Source of the DNA: Leuconostoc citreum
GTDB lineage: Bacteria; Bacillota; Bacilli; Lactobacillales; Lactobacillaceae
Assembly: GCF_004354555.1 (NCBI RefSeq)
Contig: NZ_PUFH01000009.1
Coordinates: 1-55,365 of the forward strand
DNA: 55,365 nucleotides
Direction: 5' to 3'
Shown in pieces: positions 33,642 through 49,971 of the stretch; position 1 is the stretch's first letter; each line of letters begins with the position of its first letter. Position numbers and translations under genes: made by a program. The notes below the pieces were generated by a model. The model was not told the DNA's origin. It ran no database searches and was given only the letters and a program-made list of their open reading frames with translations.

Positions 33642-33743
33642 GTTCTAGAGGGTTGCGTATGACTGCAATAGAGTTGACTTAATCTATATTTTTCTTTAAT
33701 TTCTGTAAATCATTATATGGCACATTAAAGAAAAGAGAAAAAA

Positions 33744-36606: not shown

Positions 36607-36634
36607 TATGTGCTGGGCAATCACATAAAAAGGC
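36607..36634 (+). repeat. Cargo-leader stem-loop, copy 2
   Basis: TATGTG, 9-nt loop (ctgggcaat), CACATA, then AAAAGGC and the Shine-Dalgarno of the gene at 36650. The stem is a compensated variant of ACGTG/CACGT. Confidence 0.5.
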
Positions 36635-36649
36635 TAAGGAGAATTGACT

Positions 36650-37084
36650 ATGTTTCATATTCAGCCAACACCAATATCTTGGGTTTTATGGCTTGCTATG
36701 TTTGCTGTTCCTATCATTATTATTATTATTGGTATTGGTATTTATTTTGTCAGTCATAAAGCCAAGCTGGGGAACATCTTCGGAGTGATAGGCTTAATCG
36801 GTATTGTAGTAGTTGCATTACTCGGTGCTTCTTCAAAGTATTATAATTATACGCACTCGTCAAGCTATATCAAATCACAAAAATCATATCAACTGGAATA
36901 TAATAATAATCAACAACGAGAGATTATCATCAAAGACTATCAGGGTAAAACTTTTTACCAACATACTGGTACATTTAGCTTTGATCGTAATGGTCACGGT
37001 GTCAATCTTGTCGATAGCAAGACGGGTAAAAAAACAGCTATTTACATTGGTGATAACGACACTGTGATTGTCACAGATAAATAA
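36650..37084 (+). CDS. Membrane-anchored small protein
   Basis: 144 aa from the ATG at 36650 (AAGGAG Shine-Dalgarno). Two membrane segments (about 8-30 and 40-60) precede an extracytoplasmic beta-rich domain of about 80 residues with many Asn, Gln and Lys. No recognised family. A cargo-leader stem-loop is just upstream. Confidence 0.6.
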   Translation: MFHIQPTPISWVLWLAMFAVPIIIIIIGIGIYFVSHKAKLGNIFGVIGLIGIVVVALLGASSKYYNYTHSSSYIKSQKSYQLEYNNNQQREIIIKDYQGKTFYQHTGTFSFDRNGHGVNLVDSKTGKKTAIYIGDNDTVIVTDK

Positions 37085-37659: not shown

Positions 37660-37707
37660 GCACTCATAGAGTGCGTACATATCACGTGCGGGACTCACGT
37701 TAAAAGC
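37660..37707 (+). repeat. Cargo-leader double hairpin, copy 3
   Basis: Hairpin 1 is GCACTC-ATA-GAGTGC (37660-37674). After GTACATATC comes hairpin 2, ACGTG, 7-nt loop (cgggact), CACGT (37684-37700), then TAAAAGC. The same two-hairpin unit recurs at 49870-49915. It leads into the methyltransferase gene. Confidence 0.65.
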
Positions 37708-37727
37708 ATTATTGGAGATGAAATAAG

Positions 37728-38477
37728 ATGAACACATTAAAAAAACAAGGATTAGACGCACCAATCGTACCACTTTTGTATATTATTGCTGGCTTAGTTG
37801 CTACTAGCTGTGCTGTTATTTTTCGCAACAATTATAGTGGCTACTTATGGACGCTTTTATATGGCATCATTATGGTTCTGGGTGGCCTGATTTTCATACA
37901 TACTTCAATGCGCGGGAAACACATCATTTGGGATAATATTTTATCTACCCTGACTATCCCTAATGATAGCAAAGTCCTTGATTTAGGCACTGGTCATGGG
38001 CTTGTATTACTAAAATTTGCATCACGTTTATCAGAAAACGGTCATGCCACGGGAATTGACCTATGGCGTAATCAAGACCAATCAAATAATAGTATTGAAA
38101 ACACTCAAAATATAATTAAATCATATCATTTGGATAAAGTGGCAAGTGTGCAAACCGCAAACATGTTAGACCTACCATTTAAAAATAATCAATACGACTT
38201 TGTCGTTACTAGCTTAGCTTTGCACAACATTAAGCCAGCGACAGCACGTAAAGCAGCTCTGAATGAAGCGACACGTGTTTTAAAATCTGCCGGCACACTG
38301 GTGATTGTTGACACAGGACATAAGAAAAAAGAATATCTATCTATACTACAATCGAATGGCTTCATGATTCAAGAACAAAAAACTTACGGTATCATTGGCT
38401 GGTGGAGTGGTCCGTGGATGTCGACCTACGCGATTATTGCTACCGCACCAACAAAGCATCCTTTGAACAAAAGATGA
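37728..38477 (+). CDS. SAM-dependent class I methyltransferase with N-terminal membrane segments
   Basis: 249 aa. Two membrane segments (about 15-35 and 42-62) are followed by a Rossmann-fold methyltransferase domain: motif I VLDLGTGHGLVL (near residue 83), the acidic ATGIDLW strand, and LPFKNNQYDFVVTSLALHNI (near 148). It resembles UbiE-like methyltransferases fused to membrane helices. Substrate unknown. GGAGATG Shine-Dalgarno. Confidence 0.8.
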   Translation: MNTLKKQGLDAPIVPLLYIIAGLVATSCAVIFRNNYSGYLWTLLYGIIMVLGGLIFIHTSMRGKHIIWDNILSTLTIPNDSKVLDLGTGHGLVLLKFASRLSENGHATGIDLWRNQDQSNNSIENTQNIIKSYHLDKVASVQTANMLDLPFKNNQYDFVVTSLALHNIKPATARKAALNEATRVLKSAGTLVIVDTGHKKKEYLSILQSNGFMIQEQKTYGIIGWWSGPWMSTYAIIATAPTKHPLNKR

Positions 38478-38508
38478 TAGTAGTAAACACTATATATTGG
38501 AGCATATA

Positions 38509-38664
38509 ATGAATTTAGCAATCACTTTCATGTTTTTTTGCAGCGGTGTTTCTTTTTTAAGCATAGCCAAAGAAAAACACAATAAGGAATATAAGATAAC
38601 TGGGTTTTTGATGATAATAGCTAGTATTATTAGCGCTTTAACTTACTTTTTCCATAAAATTTAG
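38509..38664 (+). CDS. Small two-helix membrane protein
   Basis: 51 aa with two hydrophobic segments separated by a charged turn (AKEKHNKEYK). Good GGAG Shine-Dalgarno, between the methyltransferase and the next membrane gene with short spacing (31 and 13 bp). Too short for confident family assignment. Confidence 0.6.
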   Translation: MNLAITFMFFCSGVSFLSIAKEKHNKEYKITGFLMIIASIISALTYFFHKI

Positions 38665-38677
38665 GGGTAATCAATTC

Positions 38678-39181
38678 ATGAACATCGATCACTTGACAAT
38701 TTCCAATATTTTAATTGCGCTTATCATATTAGTCTTTATCGTCAAAAGGCAACTAACCATCCATGTCATTAATTTCAAAATAAAATTGTATATTATTTTA
38801 ATCGTGGTTGGTTTATCGCAATTTACAAAAATCCACAATCTAGATATTAATTCAAATTTCTATCTGTTCGTTACGCTATCCTTGCTAACAGTTGTCATAT
38901 CAGGTATTCTAAGAGCTTTTTCAAGTAGAATCTTTCTCAACACTGAGGGTGTGATTGTTCGACAAGGAACCTATTTGACACTCCTACTTTGGCTACTAAC
39001 TATTGCGGCTAAATATTCATTTAGCAGTCTCTGGCAATATAGTTCTCTGTCAATATTAGTCACATTAGGCCTCTCGTTGATGGTTCAGCGTGGCACAACA
39101 TGGCTGTTAGCCAGCACAAAATTCCCTGAAAATATCACGATTACAAAGCAATTTTTAATTGACGCAAAGAGAAAAAAATAA
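38678..39181 (+). CDS. Multi-pass membrane protein (CcdC/DUF1453-like)
   Basis: 167 aa, five or so hydrophobic segments, with KRQLTIHVINFKIKL after the first helix. The overall pattern recalls DUF1453 proteins but the match is loose. It is 13 bp after the 51-aa gene and likely in the same transcript as the methyltransferase. It ends before a terminator. Confidence 0.5.
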   Translation: MNIDHLTISNILIALIILVFIVKRQLTIHVINFKIKLYIILIVVGLSQFTKIHNLDINSNFYLFVTLSLLTVVISGILRAFSSRIFLNTEGVIVRQGTYLTLLLWLLTIAAKYSFSSLWQYSSLSILVTLGLSLMVQRGTTWLLASTKFPENITITKQFLIDAKRKK

Positions 39182-39246
39182 ATCATCAGTACTTAGATAG
39201 ACAACATAAAAATGAATTGATTCTTCAACTTTAAACACTACAAAAT

Positions 39247-39302
39247 AAAAATCAAACTCAAATTTACTAACAAAATTAGTGGATTTGAGTTTGATTTATT
39301 TT
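39247..39302 (+). terminator. Terminator after the methyltransferase unit
   Basis: AAATCAAACTCAAAT and its complement GATTTGAGTTTGATTT enclose a loop with a further TTACTAAC.AAATTAGTG pairing, followed by T-rich sequence. Confidence 0.75.
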
Positions 39303-39385
39303 TAAGTGGTGTGTAAACACTACTTTTAGTAGCCATAATATCTCTTTTTAGGTAGTTGTTTGATCATCAATTAATAACAAATACT

Positions 39386-39410
39386 ACGTGCACTGAACCA
39401 CGTTAAAAGC
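39386..39410 (+). repeat. Cargo-leader stem-loop, copy 4
   Basis: ACGTG, 8-nt loop (cactgaac), CACGT, then TAAAAGC. The 12 nt CACGTTAAAAGC are identical in copies 3, 4 and 5. It lies 16 nt before the ATG of the DUF805 gene, just upstream of its Shine-Dalgarno. Confidence 0.65.
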
Positions 39411-39425
39411 TTAAGGGGGAAAACT

Positions 39426-39965
39426 ATGATTACTATGACACAATCATTTAAGAATTTTTGGAAAAACTATTTTAATTTTACGGGCACGGCTACTCGTTCA
39501 GAATACTGGTGGATGGCGCTGTGGGCGCTTATTATCAGCATTATATGGTTCATTGCAACTATAATCATCATTATATTTTCATTAGCAAGCCAAGATAAAG
39601 TAAATATCAAATTTAATACATTCGCTGAATTTATTCACAATACTCCAAGTACATTAATAGTTTGGTGTTTACTATCTTTACTAACATTACTAGCTTTCGT
39701 TATTCCATCATTATCGCTTACAGTGAGACGTTACCGTGATAGTGGTCTGAATGAAGTATCAGTATGGCTCTTATTTGCTTTAACATTGATTTCAAGTTGG
39801 ATTACGTCACCAAATGATTCTCAAAATACCTTCTTTTCTATTTATTTTTCAACTATAGGCATTGTATCTATTATTGAACTTATTGTTACTGTTTTACCAA
39901 CTAAACAACTTGCAAACACAAGGGTTATCGGTAAAAACAAGTCATATCAGAACAGTGAATTATAA
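39426..39965 (+). CDS. DUF805 family membrane protein
   Basis: 179 aa. It begins with FKNFWKNYFNFTGTATRSEYWW (near residue 7), the clear DUF805 signature, and has four membrane segments with SLTVRRYRDSG (near 98) before the third. AGGGGG Shine-Dalgarno. Function of the family is unknown. It is the last gene before the satellite. Confidence 0.85.
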   Translation: MITMTQSFKNFWKNYFNFTGTATRSEYWWMALWALIISIIWFIATIIIIIFSLASQDKVNIKFNTFAEFIHNTPSTLIVWCLLSLLTLLAFVIPSLSLTVRRYRDSGLNEVSVWLLFALTLISSWITSPNDSQNTFFSIYFSTIGIVSIIELIVTVLPTKQLANTRVIGKNKSYQNSEL

Positions 39966-40144
39966 AAGTATATGTTTTTTAATACAGCGTATGTTGTACT
40001 TTGTAGAAAATAAAACATTGCAACGCTTACTATTCCTTTTTTGTTGAAGGACATCAATATAAAAATAGTTGGTAATTTATTATTATCGGCTATATTTGCA
40101 CTAATGTTCATATTAACCCTTTATCAATATTTCGTATAGAATAA

Positions 40145-40178
40145 TAAAAAAGCCTCCGAACAATCGGTGGCTTTTAAT
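40145..40178. terminator. Terminator-like hairpin before the attachment site
   Basis: AAAAAGCC.CCGA, 4-nt loop, TCGG.GGCTTTT, in the 335-bp gap between the DUF805 gene and the direct repeat. The rest of the gap holds no gene I can support. Confidence 0.7.
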
Positions 40179-40300
40179 GTGTACAGTTGTAGGGAATTAT
40201 GTATATATTGCAATCTCAAACAAATATTTATACATTATGTACCATATTTTAATTTATGCGTTATTTTGATTAAAATACTATGCAATCTAATGAAACCATA

Positions 40301-40379
40301 TTCATAAGAAAAGGCGCTACATCAAGGTTTTTAAAACCTTATGCAACGCCATAAAATGCTTAGTGGAGTCGAGGGGAGT
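40301..40379. repeat. attL: 79-nt direct repeat with duplicated tmRNA 3' end and terminator
   Basis: It matches 55287-55365 at 77 of 79 positions. On the minus strand it reads as an acceptor 3' arm CGACTCC-A, then a terminator hairpin (GGCG..CATAAGGTTT / AAACCTTGATG..CGCC, TTTTCTT). The gene body is absent here, since the integrase region follows, so this is the displaced copy marking the left end of the element. Confidence 0.9.
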
Positions 40380-40415
40380 TACTACACCCCTGCCACATCA
40401 ACAATTCTGGCGTTT

Positions 40416-40436
40416 TGTACTATATTTAGTACCTTT
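40416..40436. promoter_or_regulatory. Candidate integrase arm-type site
   Basis: AGTACCT lies here between attL and the integrase. The same heptamer occurs twice near attR (55231-55250), as expected for arm sites. Assignment is by position only. Confidence 0.35.
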
Positions 40437-41557
40437 TAATCAATTAAACCCGACAAAACATTACCTGTATCATCACTGGCTCGTTTTGTAATGTCGCTAT
40501 ACACATCTAAAGTCATAGATACATCCGCATGTCCTAAGTAAGTTTGTACTTGCTTCACGCTTGCGCCCTGATCTAATGCCAATGTCGCCCATGTATGCCT
40601 TAACTTGTGCATAGATAACCCAACCGCAACATTATACTTATCACTGACATCATGTAGCCACTTATTTGGTCTCATGACCTGCAACGTATGCCCATGATTA
40701 TTGAATACATAATCATCCCCGCTTTTATGGTTACTGACTTCATACCAATTAGACATCACAACTAACATCTTATTATCAATTTTAAGGGTGCGCCTACTTG
40801 TTTGGCTCTTAGGCGCTTTAATATAGGTACTACCATTTAAACCACGCCCCAACGCTTGCATAATACTTATATATCCATTGTCAAAGTCTATATTTTGCCA
40901 TTGTAAAGCGAGTAGTTCCTCGGTTCTCATCCCCGTGAATGCACCTAATCTAAGCAACGTATAGGCTTGCTGATTAATGTATTTGTATTGGCTATCTAGT
41001 ACGTCAACAAACGCCTTGAACTCGTCAACATCCATAAATTGCCTAGGCTTATTGATTGATCTGCGTGCCTTTGGCATATCTACCTTGGTAAATGGGTCTA
41101 CATCAATCATATCCATACGCACTGCAATATTTAATAGTCTTTTGAAATAACCTGTTATCTTACGATAATGCAATATTTTACCCTGCATTGTGTTAATATA
41201 TCGTTGTAAGTTCAATGGCTTAATATCAGTTACCAATATATCGCCCCACTCGGGGATGATATGGATGTTAAAAACGTTCATTGTTTTATTGAGCGTACTT
41301 TCTTCCACAGTATGCTGATAGGTATCAAGCCACATATTATACAACTCTTCAACGGTCATCACGTTTGGGGTTGTTTTTTTGTTGTATTTACTTTGGCCAT
41401 TATCAAACAAAACACTTTGATTATTAAACCATTGTCTAGCACTTTGTTTGCTTTCAAATCCTCGTTTCTTTACACGGACTTTTTGACTACTATTAATTAA
41501 ATACCCATTTACTTCCCAAACTTTCCCTTTTGGTGTGTCAATTTGCTGAAATTTCAT
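40436..41557 (-). CDS. int: Tyrosine-recombinase integrase
   Basis: 373 aa. An N-terminal AP2-like arm-binding region (1-60) is followed by a SAM-like core-binding domain (about 65-160) and the catalytic domain. The Arg is in TGMRTEELL, the HxxR in MHKLRHTWA, the second His in YLGHADVSM and the nucleophile in LDVYSD. Only 56 bp separate it from attL, so it should integrate the element at the tmRNA-like site. AGAGG Shine-Dalgarno. It is read in the same direction as the replication genes. Confidence 0.95.
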   Translation of the reverse strand: MKFQQIDTPKGKVWEVNGYLINSSQKVRVKKRGFESKQSARQWFNNQSVLFDNGQSKYNKKTTPNVMTVEELYNMWLDTYQHTVEESTLNKTMNVFNIHIIPEWGDILVTDIKPLNLQRYINTMQGKILHYRKITGYFKRLLNIAVRMDMIDVDPFTKVDMPKARRSINKPRQFMDVDEFKAFVDVLDSQYKYINQQAYTLLRLGAFTGMRTEELLALQWQNIDFDNGYISIMQALGRGLNGSTYIKAPKSQTSRRTLKIDNKMLVVMSNWYEVSNHKSGDDYVFNNHGHTLQVMRPNKWLHDVSDKYNVAVGLSMHKLRHTWATLALDQGASVKQVQTYLGHADVSMTLDVYSDITKRASDDTGNVLSGLID

Positions 41558-41681
41558 GTTATACCTCTTTGCTACAAGCGAGTAAGCAGAGATTTAGATA
41601 AAATAAAAAAGCATGTTCACACGCTTTCATTATTTCACATTATCATGTTGTCTTGCCCTTGCTTAACTCTTTTTTAAACTC

Positions 41682-41882
41682 CTAATCATAATAATGGCGT
41701 ACGGCTTCATCTATTTCATCACGATCATAGCGTAACCCGTGTGCTGTTGGATAGGCTCTCACTTTACCTGTATTCACATAACGTTTGATAAAAGTATTGT
41801 CTGCAACACTAATATATTTGTGCGCTTCATTGCGTTTCATCCACTTTGGCCATAACTGGCGATGTTCTGTGTTTGCTGTCAT
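41682..41882 (-). CDS. Excisionase-like HTH protein
   Basis: 66 aa. The sequence RNEAHKYISVADNTFIKRYVNTGKVRAYPTA fits a MerR-like winged helix used by excisionases and AlpA-type regulators. It sits just upstream of the integrase on the same strand (AAGGAG Shine-Dalgarno). It probably sets the direction of recombination. Confidence 0.7.
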   Translation of the reverse strand: MTANTEHRQLWPKWMKRNEAHKYISVADNTFIKRYVNTGKVRAYPTAHGLRYDRDEIDEAVRHYYD

Positions 41883-42287
41883 CTAGTCTCCTTTCCACAA
41901 TTCAAGTATTAATTTATTCACGTATCGCTCAATGCCATTAACATTGATATACTTAACCGCCAATGCTAATGCTAACCTGCCTTTGTAGACTAAGTGTATG
42001 CTCATTGACTGTGCGACATAAACATCAAAGCGTTTTGAATACTTGTTTGCATTCACATTAGCTGTTCGTTTACTCGCCATAGGGTGTGTTTCTTGATAGG
42101 CTCTGGTCTTATTGCCGTAAGTTGTATAGCTCAAAACATAGTTTATAGCTCTGCGATTAGTTAGCTTTCTAGTCATTAACTCATCCATAACGAGGTTGAA
42201 TACATACACATAAAACATAGTGCTTTCTTTCTCTGCATAGGTTTTTTCTGGTCTCGGCAACCTATTCATATAATCTTGAATATCCAT
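41883..42287 (-). CDS. Possible small-terminase-like (TerS) DNA-binding protein
   Basis: 134 aa from the ATG at 42287 (GAGAAAG Shine-Dalgarno). The central stretch NKTRAYQETHPMASKRTANV has the spacing of TerS N-terminal helix-turn-helix domains (N.T.A, then S..TA), followed by a basic region and helical C terminus. Satellite TerS homologues redirect packaging to the satellite genome. The match is by pattern only; a different DNA-binding function is possible. The gene abuts the excisionase gene. Confidence 0.4.
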   Translation of the reverse strand: MDIQDYMNRLPRPEKTYAEKESTMFYVYVFNLVMDELMTRKLTNRRAINYVLSYTTYGNKTRAYQETHPMASKRTANVNANKYSKRFDVYVAQSMSIHLVYKGRLALALAVKYINVNGIERYVNKLILELWKGD

Positions 42288-42490
42288 AAAAACTTTCTCA
42301 CTAGTAAAAGGCAACCTCTACATTTTAATGTTCATAAGCTAAGTCCTTGCAAACACTACATTTAAGACAGCCACACTGTATACCTTTTTATATTTTATTC
42401 ATTAAAACAACCCTCAAAATACCTTTATAACAGTTTTTAAACGTGATTATTGCTATTTTAAAAGATGTCATTTTGTTCAGTTTTGTCTAC

Positions 42491-42835
42491 CTATTCAATG
42501 CCCCTCAATTCTAGCTCGGTCTCAAATTTAATTTGCGCACTGCGTGACTTTTGTTGTAATTGCAAATACTCTGCCCATATCTCTTGTAACTGCTCTTGTG
42601 ACGGTTCACTCTTAGTAAAATCACTGGCTTCAAATCGTTCAACGTTGTAACCAAACATATTTAATGTCAACTCAAGCATTTTTGCTTTGTGTCTAGTGAG
42701 TTCTAACTGGTGTGCTGTCATAACGTCGTGTGTCTCTTGATTATGATTAACTTGTTCAAGAAACTTGATGTGTCTACGCTGTTCAAACAAATAGCCAATC
42801 ATTGCTATAAATATAAAGCCAACTATATAATTCAT
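42491..42835 (-). CDS. Hypothetical membrane-anchored coiled-coil protein
   Basis: 114 aa. An N-terminal membrane helix (1-18) is followed by long charged helices likely to form a coiled coil (25-110). AAGGGG Shine-Dalgarno. No family recognised. The 203 bp between this gene and 42287 hold no supported gene. Confidence 0.55.
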   Translation of the reverse strand: MNYIVGFIFIAMIGYLFEQRRHIKFLEQVNHNQETHDVMTAHQLELTRHKAKMLELTLNMFGYNVERFEASDFTKSEPSQEQLQEIWAEYLQLQQKSRSAQIKFETELELRGIE

Positions 42836-42856
42836 TTCATCCCCTTAACGACTGCG

Positions 42857-43003
42857 TCATATTGTCACACTCAACTTTTCCAGTCCTTGCTTAATTGCTT
42901 CAATCTGACAAAATTCGCCAAAACTGATACTAATATCATCTGTCTTATTTTTCATTAAATCTTTGTAAGCTGTCATGCAGTTATAATAAAAATCTTTATT
43001 CAT
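42857..43003 (-). CDS. Small hypothetical protein
   Basis: 48 aa, soluble, starting at an ATG with a good AGAGGA Shine-Dalgarno. Mixed charge with FYYNCMTAYKDLMKNK at the start. Its stop lies 22 bp before the next gene in the leftward operon. Supported by the ribosome-binding site and spacing; function unknown. Confidence 0.55.
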   Translation of the reverse strand: MNKDFYYNCMTAYKDLMKNKTDDISISFGEFCQIEAIKQGLEKLSVTI

Positions 43004-43272
43004 AATTCCTCTTTTCCTTATCAAATTGACTTTAAAATACTTTCAATTTACCTATTATTGACTTTGCTAAAACGCTGTATCTGTTGTGCCACAAACCTTA
43101 AACCTAAATAATTGACTTTCTCGACCTTTTCTCGAAGTCCTTATATATACGTATATATATTATTTATTCTAGTAACTTCAATAAAAAGTCAATAACATCA
43201 ATAACCTTTATACACCAACGGTTACAAGCATTTTTTATGTCAATAATAGCTCTATAAAACATCTGTTTAACG

Positions 43273-44676
43273 TCAATCTATATACTTAATATCCAAAAAT
43301 CGCTTAGTTGCTTTGCCGTGTTCATCATCTAAACTTGAAATAGTCACACTTTTTGAACTTTTAATACCTAAATGTTCCATACGACTGTAAAATGTGTTGC
43401 GGTTTATCGTTTCTTTCATACCCATATCTTCAACATCTCGACTAAATTGCTGATACATATACTTGGCGGTTGGTCGCCTGTCTTTAGCTTCCTCCGTATG
43501 TTCATCTAGCCACTGTGAGACAATATCAGCGCTCTTTAGCCATTCTGCTGTCGCTTTCTGGACGTTTTCGGGGATGTTTAACGTCTTAGCTCGCTCTGCG
43601 TCCATAAATAGCTTAATGACCTTACGTGTAAACGCTGGGCGCTCATCTAATAACTCGGCTTCATCAAAATAATCACTCTTGCCGTCTTTGGTAGTAAACC
43701 CCTTACCTTGCGTTGTGAGTACCAATGGTCTACGATCTAATCCGCTATCTCGTCTAATGTTGGGTAAGTCATTAGCTGAAAAAAATAGTGTGGCATAATT
43801 GACGATACTAAAAGCCTGCACACCCTTAGATTCCACTTCAAATCGTTCTTTACCACTCACAGCTAGTTTGAGGTTCTCTGTGTTTGGCATGTAGTTAGCT
43901 GGTATATCACTGCCAATGTTTGCATACTTACCCACTAGCCCAACCGTTTTGAATTTATCCCCAAATGCTTGTAAACTCAATTCACTGACGTTACCGCTAT
44001 ACAGTTTCTGACCAATATAAGTAAGCGCCGTGCCTTTTCCGTTACCACCTTTACCATACAAAATGACAAAGTTTTGAAAGGGCAAGTAATTACGTTTAAA
44101 GCCATAACCAATAAACTTGTATAATAGCTCTGCATTTTCATCCCCTAACAGTCGGGTAAAAAACTCGTCCGTCTTGGGTGTCGGTAAATCTTTATCACTA
44201 ACTGGATAATCTAACCCACCTAAAGCATGGTACTGTGATGCGTTTGGCTTAATTTCTAACGTCCGCATATCCAATGTGCCATTAGTAAAGCTAACCATAT
44301 AAGGCTTATCAGTAAAATCGATATAATCAGCCACATCTTTTACTGTGATTACTCGGATTAAGTCCACAATATTTTTGACTTGCTTGGCACTGGTTAGCTT
44401 TTTATGCTGTTTTAATAGTGTCGCCACTCTTGAACTTAACGCATTATCTGCCTGCTTCACATTCTTGTACCGTTTCCAATACTGACCGTTAAACAAATAC
44501 CCTGCTAGATTATTGTTATCAGTGTAAAAATTAGTCTCTTTCGCCACAAACTCCGCTAATCGTTCAACATTCACTGTCGTCTTGCTGATTTCGCCTGTCT
44601 CGTTGTATTGCACATCCAACCAACTCGGCACTTTGTTCGTAACTTTTGGCATTGGTGTTGTATCAATCTCTGCCAT
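43273..44676 (-). CDS. D5/P4-type primase-helicase (SF3 ATPase)
   Basis: 467 aa. The N-terminal half (about 60-175) resembles the D5_N domain. The SF3 helicase follows with Walker A LYGKGGNGKGT (near residue 207) and a Walker-B/sensor region (FFSANDLPNIRRDSG near 300). It should unwind the element's origin and support its autonomous replication. It overlaps the prim-pol gene by 14 bp, so the two form one replication unit, the pri-rep pair of satellites. The 269 bp after its end are AT-rich with no supported gene. Confidence 0.9.
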   Translation of the reverse strand: MAEIDTTPMPKVTNKVPSWLDVQYNETGEISKTTVNVERLAEFVAKETNFYTDNNNLAGYLFNGQYWKRYKNVKQADNALSSRVATLLKQHKKLTSAKQVKNIVDLIRVITVKDVADYIDFTDKPYMVSFTNGTLDMRTLEIKPNASQYHALGGLDYPVSDKDLPTPKTDEFFTRLLGDENAELLYKFIGYGFKRNYLPFQNFVILYGKGGNGKGTALTYIGQKLYSGNVSELSLQAFGDKFKTVGLVGKYANIGSDIPANYMPNTENLKLAVSGKERFEVESKGVQAFSIVNYATLFFSANDLPNIRRDSGLDRRPLVLTTQGKGFTTKDGKSDYFDEAELLDERPAFTRKVIKLFMDAERAKTLNIPENVQKATAEWLKSADIVSQWLDEHTEEAKDRRPTAKYMYQQFSRDVEDMGMKETINRNTFYSRMEHLGIKSSKSVTISSLDDEHGKATKRFLDIKYID

Positions 44677-45487
44677 AGCTATTTATCCTCATTATTTTAC
44701 GTTCCTCTCGCCTTCTTGCACTCATATACACCTTGCCTAGTTCATCATGGGGTAATGGTTCGTTACTGCGTTCATTGGTAATTTGTAAAATATCGTAAAT
44801 GCTTTGTGGCTCAATATTTAAGGCAAACAAATACCCTGCTAAGCTCATCGCTTGATCGTTGCGTTGTCCTGTCTCAAAGCCATTTTTGACCATTAACCAA
44901 CGGTCTACATTGCTGTATCTGCTCGTTGATTTTGTCTTTGATGTATTTGTACCACCGTGATTATTTGCAAGCTGATACACCCACTCTGGCGCTTGCTGTA
45001 TCGTCTCAAAAGGGGTAATTGCTCGATATGGTTGCTGATTGATAACACTGGGTGCAACAATGACCCCATGTTTGTTAGTCAAAAGGTCTACACCTTGCAA
45101 GGCGCTGACTTTCTCTGCTGGCTTAGTCTTGCCCTCGGTGATGAGATAAAAAGCGTGTAGTCCACCACTGGCTGTCCGTTCAACATAAGTGTCTTGGATA
45201 GTCTCTGGGTTGATGTCGTGCGACTTAAACCATGCGCTAATGCTTTTCATACCATTGTGTTTATGCTTATCAATATCAACCACAATTAAATTACTCCGTG
45301 ACAAGTCAATTCCCACATTGCCGTCTTGATACTCTGGATGTCCGTTTATCCAGTGTTTTAAATCATCCCCATTTTTAAAACTGTTATTGTACCCACCGCT
45401 GACTGCATTGTGCTTCTGATTAGGTAGCGCCATAAACACATAAGCACCTGTCTGTTGATATTGTTTGATTTGTTCCCACTTAGCCAC
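44663..45487 (-). CDS. Bifunctional primase-polymerase (prim-pol)
   Basis: 274 aa with GTG start. The prim-pol core has NVGIDLSRSNLIVVDIDKH (near residue 52, with catalytic Asp pair DID), TASGGLHAFY (near 108), and the following beta strands ending about residue 170, then a helical region (about 190-270) of the PriCT type. It makes primers for the element. It overlaps the helicase gene. Confidence 0.88.
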   Translation of the reverse strand: MAKWEQIKQYQQTGAYVFMALPNQKHNAVSGGYNNSFKNGDDLKHWINGHPEYQDGNVGIDLSRSNLIVVDIDKHKHNGMKSISAWFKSHDINPETIQDTYVERTASGGLHAFYLITEGKTKPAEKVSALQGVDLLTNKHGVIVAPSVINQQPYRAITPFETIQQAPEWVYQLANNHGGTNTSKTKSTSRYSNVDRWLMVKNGFETGQRNDQAMSLAGYLFALNIEPQSIYDILQITNERSNEPLPHDELGKVYMSARRREERKIMRINSYGRD

Positions 45488-45489
45488 TG

Positions 45490-45672
45490 TTACACCCTGC
45501 CTTTAAGCGTTTGCAAACGTGTCTCAACTTCATTAAGGTCAGTCCCTATCCTTAACACCATGCTAATGAGTTTTTGTGGCTCTTTCTGATACCTAGCTAA
45601 ATTGACAAGGCTCTTTGCACTCATCACACTTTCTAAGGCGTGATTAACCGCTACTCGTTGTGATTGTGTCAT
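45490..45672 (-). CDS. Small hypothetical protein
   Basis: 60 aa, helical, with repeated Val/Leu heptads (ALESVMSAKSLVNLARY). It lies 2 bp before the prim-pol gene and 2 bp after the next, in a tight operon. No family recognised. Confidence 0.6.
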   Translation of the reverse strand: MTQSQRVAVNHALESVMSAKSLVNLARYQKEPQKLISMVLRIGTDLNEVETRLQTLKGRV

Positions 45673-45674
45673 GC

Positions 45675-45992
45675 TTAAACCCTCGCAAATCTTTCTTCAT
45701 GCTTCAACAACGCATTAATGATTGTTTGTTGACTATTAACACTCTTTTGTAAGGTGTTCACTGTTTCCCAAAACTCGTTACTTGTAACAATAAGATACAT
45801 GCCACCGTGCGCTTGGCGGTTACTCCCGATTAAATACCCACGTTTACGCAAATCTGCGACAATATCACTCACACGCTTTTTATTAATCCGCAATAAGTAA
45901 GCCAACTTCTCCAATGTAATTGCTTGCGCACGTCCCGCGGGCAATGTATTTAGTATCTGCTGTTCAATGTTTGATAATGGTGTTTCTGTCAT
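45675..45992 (-). CDS. Winged-helix DNA-binding protein
   Basis: 105 aa from the ATG at 45992, which overlaps the stop of the preceding gene (ATGA). The helix-turn-helix region LEKLAYLLRINKKRVSDIVADLRKRGYLIG (about 20-50) is a winged helix. It is probably a regulator or a replication accessory factor of the element. Confidence 0.65.
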   Translation of the reverse strand: MTETPLSNIEQQILNTLPAGRAQAITLEKLAYLLRINKKRVSDIVADLRKRGYLIGSNRQAHGGMYLIVTSNEFWETVNTLQKSVNSQQTIINALLKHEERFARV

Positions 45993-46267
45993 TGTTGGTC
46001 GCCTCGCTCGAAACTGTCTAACCAATCGTGAAATCTAATTTCATCTACAGGCTGAAACGTTTTTTTGTTTAAATCAACGCTGAACATTGGTTCGTTAAAT
46101 AACGAGTTGATGTAATCAACTTGAGCCAATGTAATATAAAATTTTGTATTTTTATCCTTATCCATGTTAAAATGTGTATAGCAAAAGCCATGATATAGGC
46201 GTTTGTAGCAAGGCTCATCCGTAAGTTTGGTCGCTCGGGGATGTGCTTTTTTTGTGCCCTTTTTCAT
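45989..46267 (-). CDS. Satellite early protein with a paralogue in the remnant element
   Basis: 92 aa; starts at the ATG with AAGGA Shine-Dalgarno. The C-terminal 58 residues, with the IN..FN.P.F..D pattern, are related to the 64-aa protein at 34789-34983. The basic N-terminal extension is specific to this copy. Function unknown. Overlaps the winged-helix gene. Confidence 0.6.
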   Translation of the reverse strand: MKKGTKKAHPRATKLTDEPCYKRLYHGFCYTHFNMDKDKNTKFYITLAQVDYINSLFNEPMFSVDLNKKTFQPVDEIRFHDWLDSFERGDQQ

Positions 46268-46282
46268 GCTTTGCCGTCCTTT

Positions 46283-46516
46283 CTATTTAGTTACTTGAAA
46301 TAATTCACGTTCAATGGCTTTAATATCATAGATCACTACTTTGTCATGTTTATAACCTGTGATAAGTCCTTGTCGTTTCCAGCTTTTAACCGTTCCCAAA
46401 CTCACATCAAAATGTTCCGCCACTTTCTCAGCTCGTTTCCAGACATGCGTATTTTGTCTGAACTGAAATGCCAGTTCTGCTAGTTCTTCCATTAGATCAT
46501 CATTACTTACTGCCAT
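46283..46516 (-). CDS. Helix-turn-helix protein
   Basis: 77 aa. The stretch RAEKVAEHFDVSLGTVKSWKRQGLI (about 28-53) is a helix-turn-helix of the MerR/HTH_17 or phage-regulator type. It follows within 2 bp of the 53-aa gene and is likely an early regulator. Confidence 0.65.
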   Translation of the reverse strand: MAVSNDDLMEELAELAFQFRQNTHVWKRAEKVAEHFDVSLGTVKSWKRQGLITGYKHDKVVIYDIKAIERELFQVTK

Positions 46517-46517
46517 A

Positions 46518-46679
46518 TCATCCCCTAATAATCAATCGTGTGGTGGCTCTGTCTAACAACTCATAAGCTTGCATGATTTCAAACTGTGCTTGTTCGTTAC
46601 CTGCTACCCTGTCACTGTTAGCAATGTCAACCAAGGGCTTATACATGCGCTCTAACGTTCTCACATACACATTGCTCAT
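46518..46679 (-). CDS. Small hypothetical protein
   Basis: 53 aa. It has a strong AAAGGAGG Shine-Dalgarno 10 nt before the ATG and overlaps the preceding 35-aa gene (ATGA). Amphipathic helical (RTLERMYKPLVDIANSD). No family recognised. Confidence 0.6.
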   Translation of the reverse strand: MSNVYVRTLERMYKPLVDIANSDRVAGNEQAQFEIMQAYELLDRATTRLIIRG

Positions 46680-46783
46680 GCTTTGCGTTCCTCCTTTAGA
46701 CTATCTCCAACAACCACACCCATAATAAAGGCGCTACCTACTACAAATACAAGCCCGATAACTTGTGCTAACCATAATGTCAT
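46676..46783 (-). CDS. 35-residue single-span membrane protein
   Basis: MTLWLAQVIGLVFVVGSAFI begins it, a hydrophobic helix of about 22 residues followed by a charged tail (SLKEERKA). AAAGGAGG Shine-Dalgarno that overlaps the end of the upstream gene. The strong ribosome-binding site and ATGA coupling on both sides support translation. Too small for automated gene calls. Confidence 0.6.
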   Translation of the reverse strand: MTLWLAQVIGLVFVVGSAFIMGVVVGDSLKEERKA

Positions 46784-46785
46784 TC

Positions 46786-47043
46786 TTAGTCCTCCTTTTC
46801 TGTTTGTGCTTGATTTTCTAAACCGCCTTGCACATTCTCGTTATCTTCCATACGGTCATAATATTTGAGTTGCATGTCTTCCAAATCTTTCAACATGTTA
46901 ATGACTGTTGGCGTTGTGATATGGTCGCCTGCTTTCAAGCTATCAACCAATGTGAGCGCTAATGTTTCTTGTACATCCTCAAGCGCGCTGTTCGTGTCCT
47001 TGATAACTTCTGCTTCATTAAATAGTGCGTTTGATACTGCCAT
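46786..47043 (-). CDS. Hypothetical protein, first gene of the satellite operon
   Basis: 85 aa from the ATG at 47043 (AGGAG Shine-Dalgarno); the frame extends upstream without one. Acidic and helical, Asn/Gln-rich at the C terminus. It starts the leftward replication operon, facing the repressor across the operator region. Function unknown; first-gene position suggests an early regulator or anti-repressor. Confidence 0.6.
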   Translation of the reverse strand: MAVSNALFNEAEVIKDTNSALEDVQETLALTLVDSLKAGDHITTPTVINMLKDLEDMQLKYYDRMEDNENVQGGLENQAQTEKED

Positions 47044-47129
47044 GATAATTTCTCCTGTCTCGTTGCTTTTATAGTGATTCACTCTTGCACTTAATATCCT
47101 TACTTGCCTTTAAATGACCTTGCTTGTCT

Positions 47130-47137
47130 GGTATGAT
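47130..47137 (+). promoter_or_regulatory. Extended -10 promoter of the satellite repressor
   Basis: TGGTATGAT (TGn-TATGAT) with the same flanks as the promoter before the remnant repressor at 35104. Transcription starts into the operator region. Confidence 0.5.
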
Positions 47138-47170
47138 TAGTGTATATGTAACCAACTGAACATTATAAAC

Positions 47171-47228
47171 GTAACCTTAGGTACGTATCGTTATTTATAA
47201 TTTACACTTTGATACCTTAGGTTACAAC
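47171..47228. promoter_or_regulatory. Two inverted operator copies, GTAACCTTAGGTA / TACCTTAGGTTAC
   Basis: 13-nt arms GTAACCTTAGGTA (about 47172) and TACCTTAGGTTAC (about 47214) are exact reverse complements apart from the central A/T, and each is itself near-palindromic (GTAACC..GGTTAC). A weaker GTAACC copy is at 47156. They lie between the divergent satellite promoters, where a repressor dimer pair should bind. Confidence 0.6.
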
Positions 47229-47306
47229 GAGCTTTATTGTTTCTTAACTTAGTTTTATTTTTAGTTAACACCTTTATTTTTTCTTAATATTTAAGCGAGG
47301 TACATT

Positions 47307-47675
47307 ATGTCTGTGACTGCTAACCGTATAAAAGAATTACGTACACAAAAAAAGCTCACCCAAAGTGAACTTGCTGAAATAATCAACACATCCCGTGTAA
47401 CCATTTCACGTATTGAGAGTGAGGCACGCCAGCCCTCTTTTGCCATGCTCTCATTGATTGCTAACGCTTTAGATACAACTATGGACTATTTACAGGGCAA
47501 AACAGATAATGTGCTTAAAACGTCTCAAACTAGCTCTGATGACGGGGATGATAAGCCACTTACTCCCAACCAACGGCGCATAGCATATAGTATTGACCCC
47601 TCTGTGTCTGACGAGGAACGCGAAGACATTATAAAAATGGTTCATCTCGCTATGAAACACCGCAGACGCATTTAA
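47307..47675 (+). CDS. XRE-family repressor of the satellite
   Basis: 122 aa. The N-terminal XRE domain (residues 5-62) contains LTQSELAEIINTSRVTI and ends DYLQGKTD; the C-terminal half is short and helical. It faces the replication operon across paired operators and lies 15 bp upstream of a gene for an ImmA-type peptidase. This is the repressor-plus-antirepressor-protease layout seen in ICEBs1 and some temperate elements. Cleavage by the peptidase would derepress the element. Confidence 0.85.
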   Translation: MSVTANRIKELRTQKKLTQSELAEIINTSRVTISRIESEARQPSFAMLSLIANALDTTMDYLQGKTDNVLKTSQTSSDDGDDKPLTPNQRRIAYSIDPSVSDEEREDIIKMVHLAMKHRRRI

Positions 47676-47690
47676 TTCGAGGTTACGCCT

Positions 47691-47999
47691 ATGACTAACC
47701 TTGAATACGTATTAAATTTATTGCCTGATTATGCTTTTTACTTTATTGACGTGTCATCCCCGAACTTTCATGGCTGTATCGACTATGACAGCAAAGCCAT
47801 ATATCTTAATGAGAATGACAACGATTATGTACAGCTTATGACAGCCCTACATGAGTATGGTCATGCTGACGATAAGCCCTCTGATTATTCAAGCAAGAGG
47901 CATTACAACACGCTATTAGCTGAAAAACAAGCCAATATAACGGCAAAACGGTTACTAGCTGACTTATTTCCAACCAAAAAAGCTACCTACTATCAGTAA
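47691..47999 (+). CDS. ImmA/IrrE-type metallopeptidase
   Basis: 102 aa. The zinc motif HEYGH is at residues 61-65, followed by the third-ligand region EKQANITAKRLL near residue 84, as in ImmA proteins. It probably cleaves the adjacent repressor after a signal. Short for the family (often 140-250 aa) but with the complete catalytic core. A damaged copy of its end lies just downstream. Confidence 0.82.
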   Translation: MTNLEYVLNLLPDYAFYFIDVSSPNFHGCIDYDSKAIYLNENDNDYVQLMTALHEYGHADDKPSDYSSKRHYNTLLAEKQANITAKRLLADLFPTKKATYYQ

Positions 48000-48024
48000 G
48001 TGACTTGAACTGTTATATAAAAAT

Positions 48025-48093
48025 GACATCTCCTCTGATTATTCAAACAGGAAAACATATAAAACACGACCTGCTGAAAATCAGGATTATTAG
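48025..48093 (+). pseudogene. Degenerate duplicate of the ImmA-type C-terminal segment
   Basis: The frame from 48025 reads SSDYSNRKTYKTRPAENQ, aligned with PSDYSSKRHYNTLLAEKQ of the intact peptidase at about 47870, with related DNA (TCTGATTATTCAA). It has no start and ends at a TAG. A decayed second copy. Confidence 0.5.
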
Positions 48094-48207
48094 GCAATAA
48101 AACATTCTAAATTAGACTCTGTTAATGAATGTATCGAAATTTTCAACTTCATTTAATAAATTTATGTTATGAATTTTTGTATAAAATTACTGTAGAGAGT
48201 ATTGAAT

Positions 48208-48678
48208 ATGGACATTAAAGTAAAAAAAATGTTTGAACATTATAAAATAAAATATTGTTTGTACAAACATTCTCCTATATACACGATTGCAGACGCTCAA
48301 CAACTTCCTTTCATTTCTGATATTTATGAGGTTAAAAATCTGTTTTTAAGAAATCAAAAAAAAACTGCCTATTATTTGTTTAGTCTACCAGTAAATAGTT
48401 CTTTAACGCTTAAAGACATTGCCTATATTACAATGAATAAAAAAGTTAGTTTTGCCTCTGACCAAGATTTAATGAATATACTATCAGTATCTTCAGGTAG
48501 CGTGTCCATATTAAATGCACTAAATGATGATAATAAATCAGTTGAATATTATATTTCTAATGATATTTTAACAGAAAACAACGTGGCATATCATCCAAAC
48601 CAAAATAATGAAACAGTTGTTTTCAATGGCTCAGAAATTACAAAGATTTTAGATGGTTATAAATTACACGTACTATAA
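48208..48678 (+). CDS. YbaK/ProX-like aminoacyl-tRNA editing protein
   Basis: 156 aa from the ATG at 48208; a TTG two codons earlier is an alternative. It carries the YbaK/deacylase pattern: KHSPIYTIADAQ (near residue 18), EVKNLFLRNQKKTAYYLF (near 38), VSSGSVSILNAL (near 96). ProX relatives hydrolyse Ala-tRNA(Pro) and similar mischarged tRNAs. Very AT-rich, unlike core genes, so probably acquired cargo. Confidence 0.75.
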   Translation: MDIKVKKMFEHYKIKYCLYKHSPIYTIADAQQLPFISDIYEVKNLFLRNQKKTAYYLFSLPVNSSLTLKDIAYITMNKKVSFASDQDLMNILSVSSGSVSILNALNDDNKSVEYYISNDILTENNVAYHPNQNNETVVFNGSEITKILDGYKLHVL

Positions 48679-48736
48679 TCTGGGTATTGATTGTCTAAAC
48701 AATATAAGCTCCATACTATTAAAAAAGGTTTCATAA

Positions 48737-49426
48737 ATGAATACATATCTTCCAAAACGTATTGTCGTAAATTCTAATAATAGTCGTTTTTTTGCTATAC
48801 TAATGGCTTTTTCCGGTGGCGTATCAGATGTTTACTGCCATATATACTTTCATGGTCTAGTTGCAACTCAAACTGGAAACGTGATTTTATTAGCTTCTGA
48901 TTTATCTCAAAAAAATTGGTCTCAAGTAATCCCTAAACTATTGTCGATACTTACATTTTCGCTCGGATTTCTCGCAGGAATTTGGATCAAAGAAAAAAAC
49001 GATCATTATTTATATTGGCGGAGTTACACAATGATTCCTGTTGTAATTGCTAGCCTACTAATTCCCTTTGCACCATATGACTTCCATCTACTTAAACTAT
49101 GCTCGTTGGCATTTGGAACGGGTCTCCTAATGTTAACCTTCACAGGAGTTAGAGTTGAAAAAAATCAATACACAATAATGATGACTTCTGGTAATTATCG
49201 TAGAATGTTAACAGAATGGTATTACTATCTCACATCAAAAAATAAATCAGCCATTTTAAAACGTAATGCTGAAAATTACACTATAGTTGTCATCTCTTTT
49301 CTAACTGGTGCCTGTCTTCTAGCTATTGTAAACCTTTTCTGGGGTCCATATACTATTTGGCTAGCATCTATAACGTTCTTTTTAGCATTTATGATCGAAT
49401 TTTCCCAAGCTTCGCGAAATAATTAG
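48737..49426 (+). CDS. DUF1275 (YoaK) membrane protein
   Basis: 229 aa, about six membrane segments. The start of the domain, MAFSGGVSDVYCHIYFHGLVATQTGNVI (about 18-45), is the DUF1275 signature. AAAGG Shine-Dalgarno. Function unknown. Belongs to the AT-rich cargo of the satellite. Confidence 0.85.
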   Translation: MNTYLPKRIVVNSNNSRFFAILMAFSGGVSDVYCHIYFHGLVATQTGNVILLASDLSQKNWSQVIPKLLSILTFSLGFLAGIWIKEKNDHYLYWRSYTMIPVVIASLLIPFAPYDFHLLKLCSLAFGTGLLMLTFTGVRVEKNQYTIMMTSGNYRRMLTEWYYYLTSKNKSAILKRNAENYTIVVISFLTGACLLAIVNLFWGPYTIWLASITFFLAFMIEFSQASRNN

Positions 49427-49455
49427 TTAATCAATACAGAATGGTAAATAAAAAT

Positions 49456-49479
49456 ACGTGCCAGAACCACGTTAAAAGC
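49456..49479 (+). repeat. Cargo-leader stem-loop, copy 5
   Basis: ACGTG, 7-nt loop (ccagaac), CACGT, then TAAAAGC. It lies 17 nt before the ATG of the DUF1304 gene, immediately before its Shine-Dalgarno. Very similar to copy 4, outside the satellite. Confidence 0.65.
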
Positions 49480-49495
49480 AAATGGAAGAGAAAAA

Positions 49496-49861
49496 ATGAA
49501 TTTAGTAATTACTATTATTAGCCTTTTAGTCGCCGTAGAATTTCTATACATTATGTATTTAGAAACTTTTGCTACAACATCCCCAAATACAGCCAAGACA
49601 TTTAACATGTCGGAAACTGATTTACAAAGTAAAAAAATACAGACTTTGTTAAAAAATCAAGGTGTTTACAACGGTTTGATTGCAGTGGGTATAATTTATT
49701 CACTATTCTTCACACACAACTACCACAACAGCTTACTTGCTATTATGATCTATATTATTTTAGTAGCTTTGTATGGTAGTTTCTCATCTGGAAATAAATC
49801 TATATTTTTCAAGCAAGGCACACTGGCTGTCATTGTAGCAATTTTATTATTGATTAGTTAA
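49496..49861 (+). CDS. DUF1304 membrane protein
   Basis: 121 aa, four membrane segments. It matches DUF1304 in AVEFLYIMYLE (near residue 13) and the NQGVYNGLIAVG segment (near 56). GAAGAG Shine-Dalgarno. Function unknown. It has the stem-loop leader shared with unrelated cargo genes. Confidence 0.8.
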   Translation: MNLVITIISLLVAVEFLYIMYLETFATTSPNTAKTFNMSETDLQSKKIQTLLKNQGVYNGLIAVGIIYSLFFTHNYHNSLLAIMIYIILVALYGSFSSGNKSIFFKQGTLAVIVAILLLIS

Positions 49862-49869
49862 TTTTATAA

Positions 49870-49915
49870 GCACTCACAGAGTGCGTACATACGTGCCAAG
49901 CGTTCACGTTAAAAA
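49870..49915 (+). repeat. Cargo-leader double hairpin, copy 6
   Basis: Hairpin 1 GCACTC-ACA-GAGTGC (49870-49884), then GTACAT and hairpin 2 ACGTG, 9-nt loop, CACGT (49891-49909), then TAAAAAG. It is the same unit as 37660-37707, here before the Abi_2 gene, and starts 9 nt after the DUF1304 stop. Confidence 0.65.
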
Positions 49916-49971
49916 GTTAAAAATAACAAGAATGCAATGTTTGAATACGAAATCTAAAAAAGAAGACATCA

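Follow-up and report, generated by a model that had tools for sequence, protein, structure and literature searches.

The locus and its genes

The stretch analysed, hereafter the window, is the 55,365-nt contig NZ_PUFH01000009.1 of Leuconostoc citreum. It carries six copies of a small folded element, together with two hairpins and short linkers, dispersed among unrelated genes. In the list below the loop-tail pair is that between the hairpin loop and the tail 3' of the stem.

33612..33647, + strand: predicted pseudoknot copy, stem ATGTG/CACAT, loop CAAATGCTTATC, loop-tail U-A
36608..36640, + strand: predicted pseudoknot copy, stem ATGTG/CACAT, loop CTGGGCAAT, loop-tail C-G, 23 nt before ATG 36650
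36650..37084, + strand: 144-aa membrane protein gene, downstream of copy 36608
37660..37674, + strand: upstream hairpin GCACTC-ATA-GAGTGC, 3 nt past the stop of gene 37108-37656
37675..37683, + strand: linker GTACATATC, joining hairpin to pseudoknot
37684..37714, + strand: predicted pseudoknot copy, stem ACGTG/CACGT, loop CGGGACT, loop-tail G-C
37728..38477, + strand: class I methyltransferase gene (249 aa), downstream of copy 37684
39386..39417, + strand: predicted pseudoknot copy, loop CACTGAAC, loop-tail G-C
39426..39965, + strand: DUF805 protein gene, downstream of copy 39386
49456..49486, + strand: predicted pseudoknot copy inside the satellite, loop CCAGAAC, loop-tail G-C
49496..49861, + strand: DUF1304 protein gene, downstream of copy 49456
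49870..49884, + strand: 3' hairpin GCACTC-ACA-GAGTGC, after the DUF1304 stop codon
49885..49890, + strand: linker GTACAT
49891..49923, + strand: predicted pseudoknot copy, loop CCAAGCGTT, tail AAAAAG, with a C-G pair and G.A replacing A.G
49972..50871, + strand: Abi_2 / AbiD abortive-infection protein gene, downstream of copy 49891

The first-pass annotation had described a recurrent stem-loop leader in six copies, all of which are found where it placed them. They score 30.2-40.4 bits with covariance model R1, scores that are not independent, since the 56 sequences used to train the model include five of the six, and 49891, the remaining copy, departs from one of the training rows in its tail alone. 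The stem-loops are real; the second helix formed by loop and tail, as well as the hairpins at 37660-37674 and 49870-49884, had been overlooked. The distance to the start codon, given as 10-65 nt, can be narrowed to 22-27 nt past the stem in four of the six copies. Copy 49891 ends 62 nt short of the Abi gene, and copy 33612, thought to precede a GNAT gene, is followed by an RBS-like AGAGGG and a 7-codon ORF (ATG 33659), the GNAT gene (start 33744) not being at the usual distance. The 144-aa membrane protein matches no Pfam family above the curated cut-off. Allowing up to two mismatches, the window has 16 matches to CACGTTAAAAGC; shuffled sequence gives 6.2 ± 2.2, and none of 100 shuffles reaches 16.

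Covariation points to an H-type pseudoknot

Covariation among copies predicts that the element folds as a compact RNA pseudoknot of the H type. Stem 1 has five base pairs, ACGUG/CACGU with compensated variants, and is followed on its 3' side by the A-rich strand UAAAAG; in the short second helix the hairpin loop pairs with the tail 3' of stem 1. Of 181 distinct copies, 175 have a standard pair between loop position -4 and tail position +6 (GC 129, CG 32, UG 6, UA 5, GU 2, AU 1), compared with 110 ± 4.8 when tails are shuffled. This pair has the highest mutual information among the 112 position pairs tried, and the second highest, -6/+8, is in the same register. Position -3/+5 alternates between A.G (162 copies) and G.A (9 copies); the middle pair -5/+7 is weak, being standard in 103 of 181 copies, barely above the 90 of the shuffled set.

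The loop-tail pairing was spotted by eye in alignment A1 (55 of 75 rows plus window copy 36608, L047 being left out as a likely chance match) and then tested on further and held-out copies. Among the latter, whose hairpin is absent from the first alignment, 112 of 116 are paired, against 72.0 ± 3.7 and at most 86 in 2000 shuffles. Identical rows were dropped from the counts, copies lacking a Shine-Dalgarno (SD) sequence and start codon were left out of both the 181-copy and the held-out sets, and the significance obtained by shuffling is overstated since copies are related by descent. A second alignment, A2, holds the best 150 of 184 matches. In A3, made of 50 rows hand-picked for diversity and without phage copy L434, which has a stem mismatch, both sides have changed in four of five stem-1 pairs and in all three loop-tail pairs, and 99.2% of stem-1 cells are paired. 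One mismatched stem-1 pair occurs in 3 of the 16 phage and plasmid copies that we opened (L427, L434 and L436). Compensated stems such as ATGTG/CACAT, ACGTC/GACGT and ACGAG/CTCGT are found among the copies, as the first-pass annotation had observed on a smaller scale.

No Rfam match coincides with a copy: release 15 at gathering score places no family on any copy in the window, where it reports only a tRNA at 16476-16546; 16 weaker Rfam matches all lie off the six copies, and a search of 37640-37740 at E <= 10 gives no match.

Distribution

The motif ACGTG-N-CACGTTAAAA occurs nine times in the genome of the window, two of these in a part of contig C3 whose sequence matches the window exactly, and is present in all 19 genomes of the genus; the reversed-pattern control gives zero matches in each of them. 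Up to 18 model matches are found per genome, and one genome has tandem doublets about 40 nt apart. The element lies in chromosomal gene rows, in satellites, and between the repressor and integrase genes of temperate phages. An order-wide model search was positive in 10 of 295 genomes at E <= 1e-4, a lower bound that says little on absence, since 23 candidates were scored per genome and the window's own genome yielded 4 places as against 14 at a laxer cut-off.

Plasmid records gave no match to 1.5 kb of window DNA; short copies, at E up to 10, retrieved 2 and 60 records, 54 of the 60 being from Acinetobacter and looking like chance. Phage searches at E up to 10 likewise include some chance records (e.g. 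Klebsiella, Escherichia, Cellulophaga and Erwinia phages), and an 18-base pattern gave, among 100 stretches, chance matches in unrelated bacteria that we do not count as real. Streptococcus viral matches with loop CCGCGAAC look like conserved coding DNA and may be due to chance.

Position and nature of the downstream genes

An SD sequence and start codon lie 21-28 nt past the stem in 124 of 170 copies and within 17-32 nt in 128; 27 of the 170 lack an SD with start codon in the range tried, and a count over a narrower range left 88 of 298 copies without them. The element sits between co-directed genes, with the preceding stop codon as near as 3 nt. In Lactococcus satellites, 7 of the 14 loci listed have the pseudoknot before an apparently gene-less stretch of about 95 nt. 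The first-pass annotation had named a lack of further copies, or their random placement with respect to genes, as outcomes that would speak against it; both were looked for and neither was found.

The genes that follow are many, small and unrelated, in lactic acid bacteria and their viruses. One count gives 199 distinct downstream proteins, and about 40 proteins in all were scanned; some of the latter are defence proteins, many are unknown or unrelated. The largest cluster is Ltp-like, with a representative assigned to PF07553 / phrog_4980. Families among the cargo include Lipoprotein_Ltp, AbiD, SIR2_2, EntA_Immun (bacteriocin immunity), PADLOC defence candidates, DUF805 and DUF1304. Several downstream genes are known, or likely, to keep other phages out; for much of the cargo (DUF805, DUF1304, methyltransferase) a role in phage immunity would be conjectural. 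We chose 16 annotated phage and plasmid loci, and in 13 of them a recombinase gene comes next after the gene behind the element.

In Streptococcus thermophilus phage TP-J34, the element stands directly before ltp, between the metalloprotease/repressor-homolog gene and the integrase gene, so that by position it precedes a gene with reported exclusion activity. PHROGs classes both ltp and the Abi protein of the window as morons. The TP-J34 record annotates a stem_loop at 1654-1682, which overlaps only the first bases of the knot. In the passages of PMC3952083 available to us, ltp is described as a superinfection exclusion gene, a promoter of its own is hinted at, and promoter and terminator are both mentioned as forthcoming; these passages give no leader structure for ltp, and the terms "stem" and "secondary structure" are absent from the paper.

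Hairpin and linker in Leuconostoc

Some Leuconostoc units carry a hairpin and the linker RUACAU directly after the stop codon, giving the order pseudoknot, RBS, one gene, 3' hairpin. Of the 49 copies that have both hairpin and linker, 41 are found no more than 70 nt from the stop codon of a gene on the same strand. The 19 genomes contain 29 places with GAGTGCRTACAT (11 for the reversed form, a poor control that resembles linker plus stem); 13 of these follow the stop of a gene having its own pseudoknot, and 9 of the 13 have no pseudoknot after them. TACATA was considered as a promoter -10 box and rejected: the hairpin before it keeps its pairing despite sequence change and directly follows stop codons, and is therefore probably transcribed. 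An intrinsic terminator was also rejected: read by eye, neither structure runs into a stretch of U, the knot leading into UAAAAG and the other hairpin into RUACAU. A rule-based count found hairpin and linker both missing from 99 of 170 copies, and none of the 16 opened phage and plasmid loci, read by eye, has hairpin plus RUACAU before the knot; any part in RNA processing thus cannot be general.

Gene exchange at the element

Sequence comparisons indicate that gene swaps break at the pseudoknot. Phages TP-J34 and Sfi21 share 98.5% identity up to the start codon, pseudoknot included, then carry unrelated genes, then resume at 99.4% identity. Among 78 phage or viral fragments, 54 pairs, not independent of one another and including a few of the CCGCGAAC-loop Streptococcus matches, match on the upstream side and diverge downstream, in 31 cases at 8-13 nt past stem 1; homology resumes farther on in 27. 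The block 49454-49915 (pseudoknot, DUF1304, hairpin, pseudoknot) is common at 93% to L066, from another genus, and Lactococcus slots are seen both with and without a gene. Right-anchored alignments start 0-5 nt before the knot in 85 of 170 cases: downstream homology extends back to the knot start, so the knot goes with the gene after it. Wherever a conserved island separates unlike genes, alignments end there, and an accumulation of such ends does not by itself prove a site; exchange is better documented by the TP-J34/Sfi21 pair and by the Lactococcus slots, filled and empty.

Interpretation

We favour as probable, from these comparisons, that the pseudoknot RNA lies in the leader, 5' untranslated or intercistronic, of exchangeable cargo genes, a fair share of which would protect the lysogen or host against other phages. 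A cis-acting RNA was among the proposals of the first-pass annotation, and it is supported by the covariation of stem and loop-tail pairs across genera and phages and by the tightly kept distance to the start codon.

How the pseudoknot acts can be pictured as follows. Each unit would carry its own RNA ends when it moves, and transcription would read through it from any promoter upstream. Where the A+U-rich linker is present, the RNA would be split there, the 3' hairpin protecting the upstream piece and the knot protecting or tuning the cargo gene's 5' end and its access to ribosomes, such that a newly acquired gene would be expressed whatever its neighbours. We propose more tentatively, as a possibility short of an even chance, that all this forms one plug-and-play device, a 5' pseudoknot that in its full form is completed by 3' hairpin and cleavable linker: an immunity gene placed in it would be expressed from a separate, protected mRNA at any landing site, and phages, satellites and hosts of lactic acid bacteria would trade such genes through it.

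The element could instead be a riboswitch or be bound by an RNA-binding protein of the host: a ligand shared by the Lactobacillales, metabolite or protein, would turn cargo translation on or off in one many-member regulon. Conservation of the UAAAA strand and of much of stem 1 indeed exceeds what pairing requires, the compact fold adjoins the SD, and the tandem doublets and many matches per genome would suit such a regulon; small ligand-sensing pseudoknots exist, e.g. SAM-V, an H-type pseudoknot controlling translation according to the abstract of PMC6061858. However, the targets (methyltransferase, DUF805, nuclease, Abi, bacteriocin immunity) share no common pathway, and phages of several host genera have copies, so a trans-acting factor would have to be very general; we regard this reading as rather unlikely.

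Improbable to a greater degree is a recombination site, a folded DNA element recognised by a cassette-moving enzyme as attC is by integron integrases. It draws on the near-identical flanks around unrelated genes in TP-J34 and Sfi21, the downstream breaks of the phage pairs, the DUF1304 block shared with another genus and the slots with and without a gene. Yet loop-tail covariation and a fixed start-codon distance would be superfluous for such a site, and the integron site lies at the 3' end of a cassette, whereas here homology of the downstream gene reaches the knot start. The first-pass annotation was right to suspect exchange at the element, but ordinary exchange at a conserved leader accounts for the breaks. 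Its shared DNA operator, in which a transcription factor would bind the inverted repeat ACGTG...CACGT, fares worst and is hardly credible: this stem is the commonest form (158 of 181), but half-site spacing varies from 6 to 13 nt across the 181 distinct copies, stems change by compensation (GACGT, CTCGT), bases beyond the repeat take part in pairing, and the element sits between co-directed genes close behind stop codons.

Structured leaders and exclusion genes are each already known. As judged from search listings, we found no description of a shared RNA leader of exclusion genes in the open-licence literature. If our preferred reading of an RNA leader is true, many small membrane proteins, most of them uncharacterised, would have a common expression or control device, which would help to explain the clean swapping of such genes in lysogeny modules. 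The leader could then serve as sequence bait for unknown anti-phage genes, scanning RNA rather than proteins, and new phage-defence genes could be found in food-fermentation organisms.

Comparison with known systems

The preQ1-I riboswitch is an H-type pseudoknot with a stem of about 5 bp, an A-rich third loop and, next to the SD, a short second helix, and the element resembles it in all these traits of architecture. Covariance models of the preQ1 families give no match at E <= 10, the downstream genes scanned here are not queuosine genes, and loop lengths and conserved bases differ between the two.

Like integron cassettes, the units described here are single-gene units in rows, with a folded element as boundary and exchange unit by unit. 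Unlike in those cassettes, where attC lies at the 3' end with GTTRRRY/RYYYAAC boxes, the knot travels with its downstream gene and shows RNA covariation; by eye its GTTAAAA is unlike GTTRRRY, and no 5' box is seen.

The representative of the largest downstream cluster belongs to the same family as the exclusion gene ltp of TP-J34, but the element here also heads many unrelated genes. Phage morons, usually described with their own promoter and terminator, are likewise extra prophage genes that often exclude other phages; to these the present units would add a shared RNA leader.

Structure of the element

All six stem-loop copies that the first-pass annotation had described in the window are present where it placed them. 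With copies set side by side, the base after UAAAAG covaries with a base of the hairpin loop (loop G with tail C, C with G, U with A). This loop-tail pair is standard in 51 of the 56 sequences of our first alignment, in 158 of 172 collapsed copies, and in 175 of 181 copies selected solely by the presence of a Shine-Dalgarno (SD) sequence and start codon (110 ± 4.8 in shuffles). In the latter set it ranks first by mutual information among 112 position pairs, followed by -6/+8 (minus, loop; plus, tail). Held-out copies, whose hairpin is absent from the first alignment, behave alike (112/116 standard, against 72.0 ± 3.7 shuffled), and G-C, C-G and U-A are each present in three genus groups. At the adjoining -3/+5 position, 136 of the 172 collapsed copies have A.G and 17 have G.A. 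As -5/+7 is standard in just 103/181 (shuffled, 90; commonest combination U.U, 59), the second helix is short and discontinuous.

Stem 1 also occurs in compensated forms: ATGTG/CACAT in Leuconostocaceae, ACGTC/GACGT in two Lactobacillus phages and one Lacticaseibacillus plasmid, and ACGAG/CTCGT in two Lactococcus phages; three other phage or plasmid copies that we opened each carry one mismatched stem-1 pair. The parts follow each other as in an H-type pseudoknot (stem 1 - loop - stem 2 - loop - stem 1' - UAAAAG - stem 2'), and this predicted fold is hereafter called the knot. Rfam release 15 gave no family match on any knot copy searched.

Tandem knots about 40 nt apart stand before one gene at 8979-9053 and at 10426-10498 of L063, a stretch of genome G011; in the first knot of each pair the loop-tail helix is shifted by one base (one has loop GAGC, tail GCUC). 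The record of phage TP-J34 has a stem_loop annotated at L423:1975-2003, with a 3' side that runs into the beginning of stem 1 and is possibly a competing fold; Sfi21 is identical in sequence at this place.

Distribution

The core motif has nine matches in the 1.84-Mb genome of the window, two of them on another contig, C3, in part identical to the window, and is found in 19/19 Leuconostoc genomes (reversed-pattern controls, 0 in each). The first 15,012 bases of C3 equal window 40354-55365 letter for letter; possible readings are two copies of the satellite or overlapping contigs. Its features are:

Window 40273-40379 and 55259-55365: direct repeats of 107 bp that are 90% alike and flank the satellite
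Window 40436-41557: satellite integrase

With a stricter pattern, 31 of the 251 family genomes surveyed gave a match (controls, 0); these belong to 10 of the 40 genera, four of which are represented by a single match each. The covariance-model search that the annotation had proposed did find further copies: our model, trained on the 56 sequences, matches 19/19 Leuconostoc genomes (E <= 0.1), 26/28 of a second genus and 9/13 of a third (E <= 0.003). A scan of named genomes returned 100 stretches, convincing in genera including Leuconostoc, Weissella, Fructobacillus, Convivina, Dellaglioa and Lactococcus, with clear chance matches outside the convincing genera. Streptococcus genomic and viral contigs (L207, L216, L241, L338, L385 and others) share a conserved ACGTG-CCGCGAAC-CACGTTAAAAGC or ACGTG-CCGAGAAC-CACGTTAAAAGC; these resemble coding DNA and may reflect chance or a distant relative.

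Position relative to genes and the 3' hairpin

An SD and start codon follow stem 1 by 17-32 nt in 128 of 170 copies (21-28 nt in 124) and are absent, within the range tried, in 27. By a rule-based criterion, 55 of the 170 copies are preceded by a hairpin, 49 of these also with the linker RUACAU or a similar sequence. Pairing in these hairpins is kept while sequence varies (GCACTC/GAGTGC, GCCC/GGGC, GCCACC/GGTGGC, CCCGC/GCGGG). For copies with hairpin and linker, the distance to a same-strand stop codon is at most 70 nt in 41/49 (21-30 in 29 of these), against 38/99 of those with neither.

The GAGTGCRTACAT hairpin occurs at 29 places in 19 genomes, followed by a knot at 14 and not at 15; 13 of the 29 come after the stop codon of a knot-bearing gene, nine of them without a knot afterwards. 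Its reversed pattern gave 11 matches, a poor control since it resembles linker plus stem. By these positions, at least this variety belongs to the preceding gene, so the full unit is knot - RBS - gene - hairpin - RUACAU, with the 3' part missing from many units. Hairpin and RUACAU before the knot, read by eye, appear in none of the 16 opened phage/plasmid loci and are present in some Weissella-type viral contigs. In some viral contigs (L350, L397, L412, L416) two successive hairpin+ATACAT units precede one knot, as though the knot and gene of one unit had gone missing.

Possible function

Covariation of stem and loop-tail pairs implies folding of the transcribed strand, and conservation of the distance to the start codon implies a role of this fold at the gene start. 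Knots occur between co-directed genes, so the element is not bound to promoters. Going beyond these sequence-level facts, we tentatively favour an mRNA-level device, because the knot lies at the 5' end and, in some units, a hairpin and A+U-rich linker lie at the 3' end; with rather low confidence, it would guard each cargo message or tune its ribosome entry. Alternatively, the knot may be a ligand- or protein-sensing switch. No paper on a shared RNA leader of such kind was listed in searches of mainly open-licence literature; work on S. thermophilus phages may already have remarked on one.

Cargo genes

In the window the cargo genes code for a methyltransferase, DUF805, DUF1304 and Abi_2/AbiD proteins and a membrane protein (no family assigned); the GNAT gene lies further from its knot. 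At window 33612-33682 a knot and RBS-like sequence are followed by a 7-codon ORF (ATG 33659), either the remnant of a cargo gene or a leader peptide ahead of the GNAT gene.

Among 199 distinct downstream proteins, the largest cluster has 20 members, represented by a Lipoprotein_Ltp protein (PHROG superinfection exclusion). Another representative, DUF4352, has its N-terminal part in common with Sfi21 orf203 (phrog_11491); further ones are EntA_Immun, bPH, YbjQ, TM2, MtN3_slv, DUF898, HSDR_N and a DNA/RNA endonuclease. Several of the large clusters are without a Pfam family. Nine candidate genes, several with a distant or weak start, stand behind knots whose loop is CCAAGCGTT or a near variant; the eight scanned gave AbiD, SIR2-type PDC-S25, PDC-S22 with KilA-N, PDC-M59A, a HigB-like protein and DUF6414, and two had no family above cut-off. 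As the roughly 40 scanned proteins were selected (cluster representatives, window genes, phage genes or picks by subtype), these families are examples, not rates.

Phage and plasmid loci and gene exchange

A 38-nt copy matched 154 records of the phage collection at E up to 10, mostly Streptococcus, Lactobacillus, Lacticaseibacillus and Lactococcus phages, with at least 80% of the query covered by one place in 118; a second query matched 141. In 13 of 16 hand-chosen annotated phage/plasmid loci, an integrase or other recombinase gene follows the gene behind the knot (in phiPYB5 after one small opposite gene), and in 10 of these 13 an annotated repressor, S24 or metallopeptidase gene lies at most two genes before. 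The exceptions are phage 128 (no integrase in the stretch opened), satellite Javan398 and a plasmid with crcB.

In 800-nt flanks, 85/170 right-anchored alignments start 0-5 nt before stem 1, and 17/28 left-anchored ones stop 5-28 nt after it; 10 span. A comparison of 78 phage and viral fragments gave 54 pairs with a break downstream of the knot, 48 with one upstream and 19 that span it. These breaks fit gene turnover at the knot, with the caveat that any conserved island would end alignments there and that pairs are not independent. The window block pseudoknot-DUF1304-hairpin-pseudoknot matches a satellite of another genus at 93%, the alignment ending at both block ends. Behind one and the same knot, satellites of the Lactococcus type differ: some have an EntA_Immun gene, some have other small genes and some (7 of the 14 loci listed) have about 95 nt without a gene. 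Past this point they agree again. In the satellites L331, L333, L341, L373, L377, L382 and L401 the knot is followed by apparently gene-less sequence of about 95 nt and then by sequence leading into the integrase.

Among the opened phages, the gene behind the knot is a superinfection-exclusion lipoprotein in TP-J34 and TP-778L, and orf203, labelled immunity region, in Sfi21. Up to the start codon, TP-J34 and Sfi21 share 98.5% identity; either ltp or orf203 follows, and beyond this gene identity is 99.4% through the integrase.
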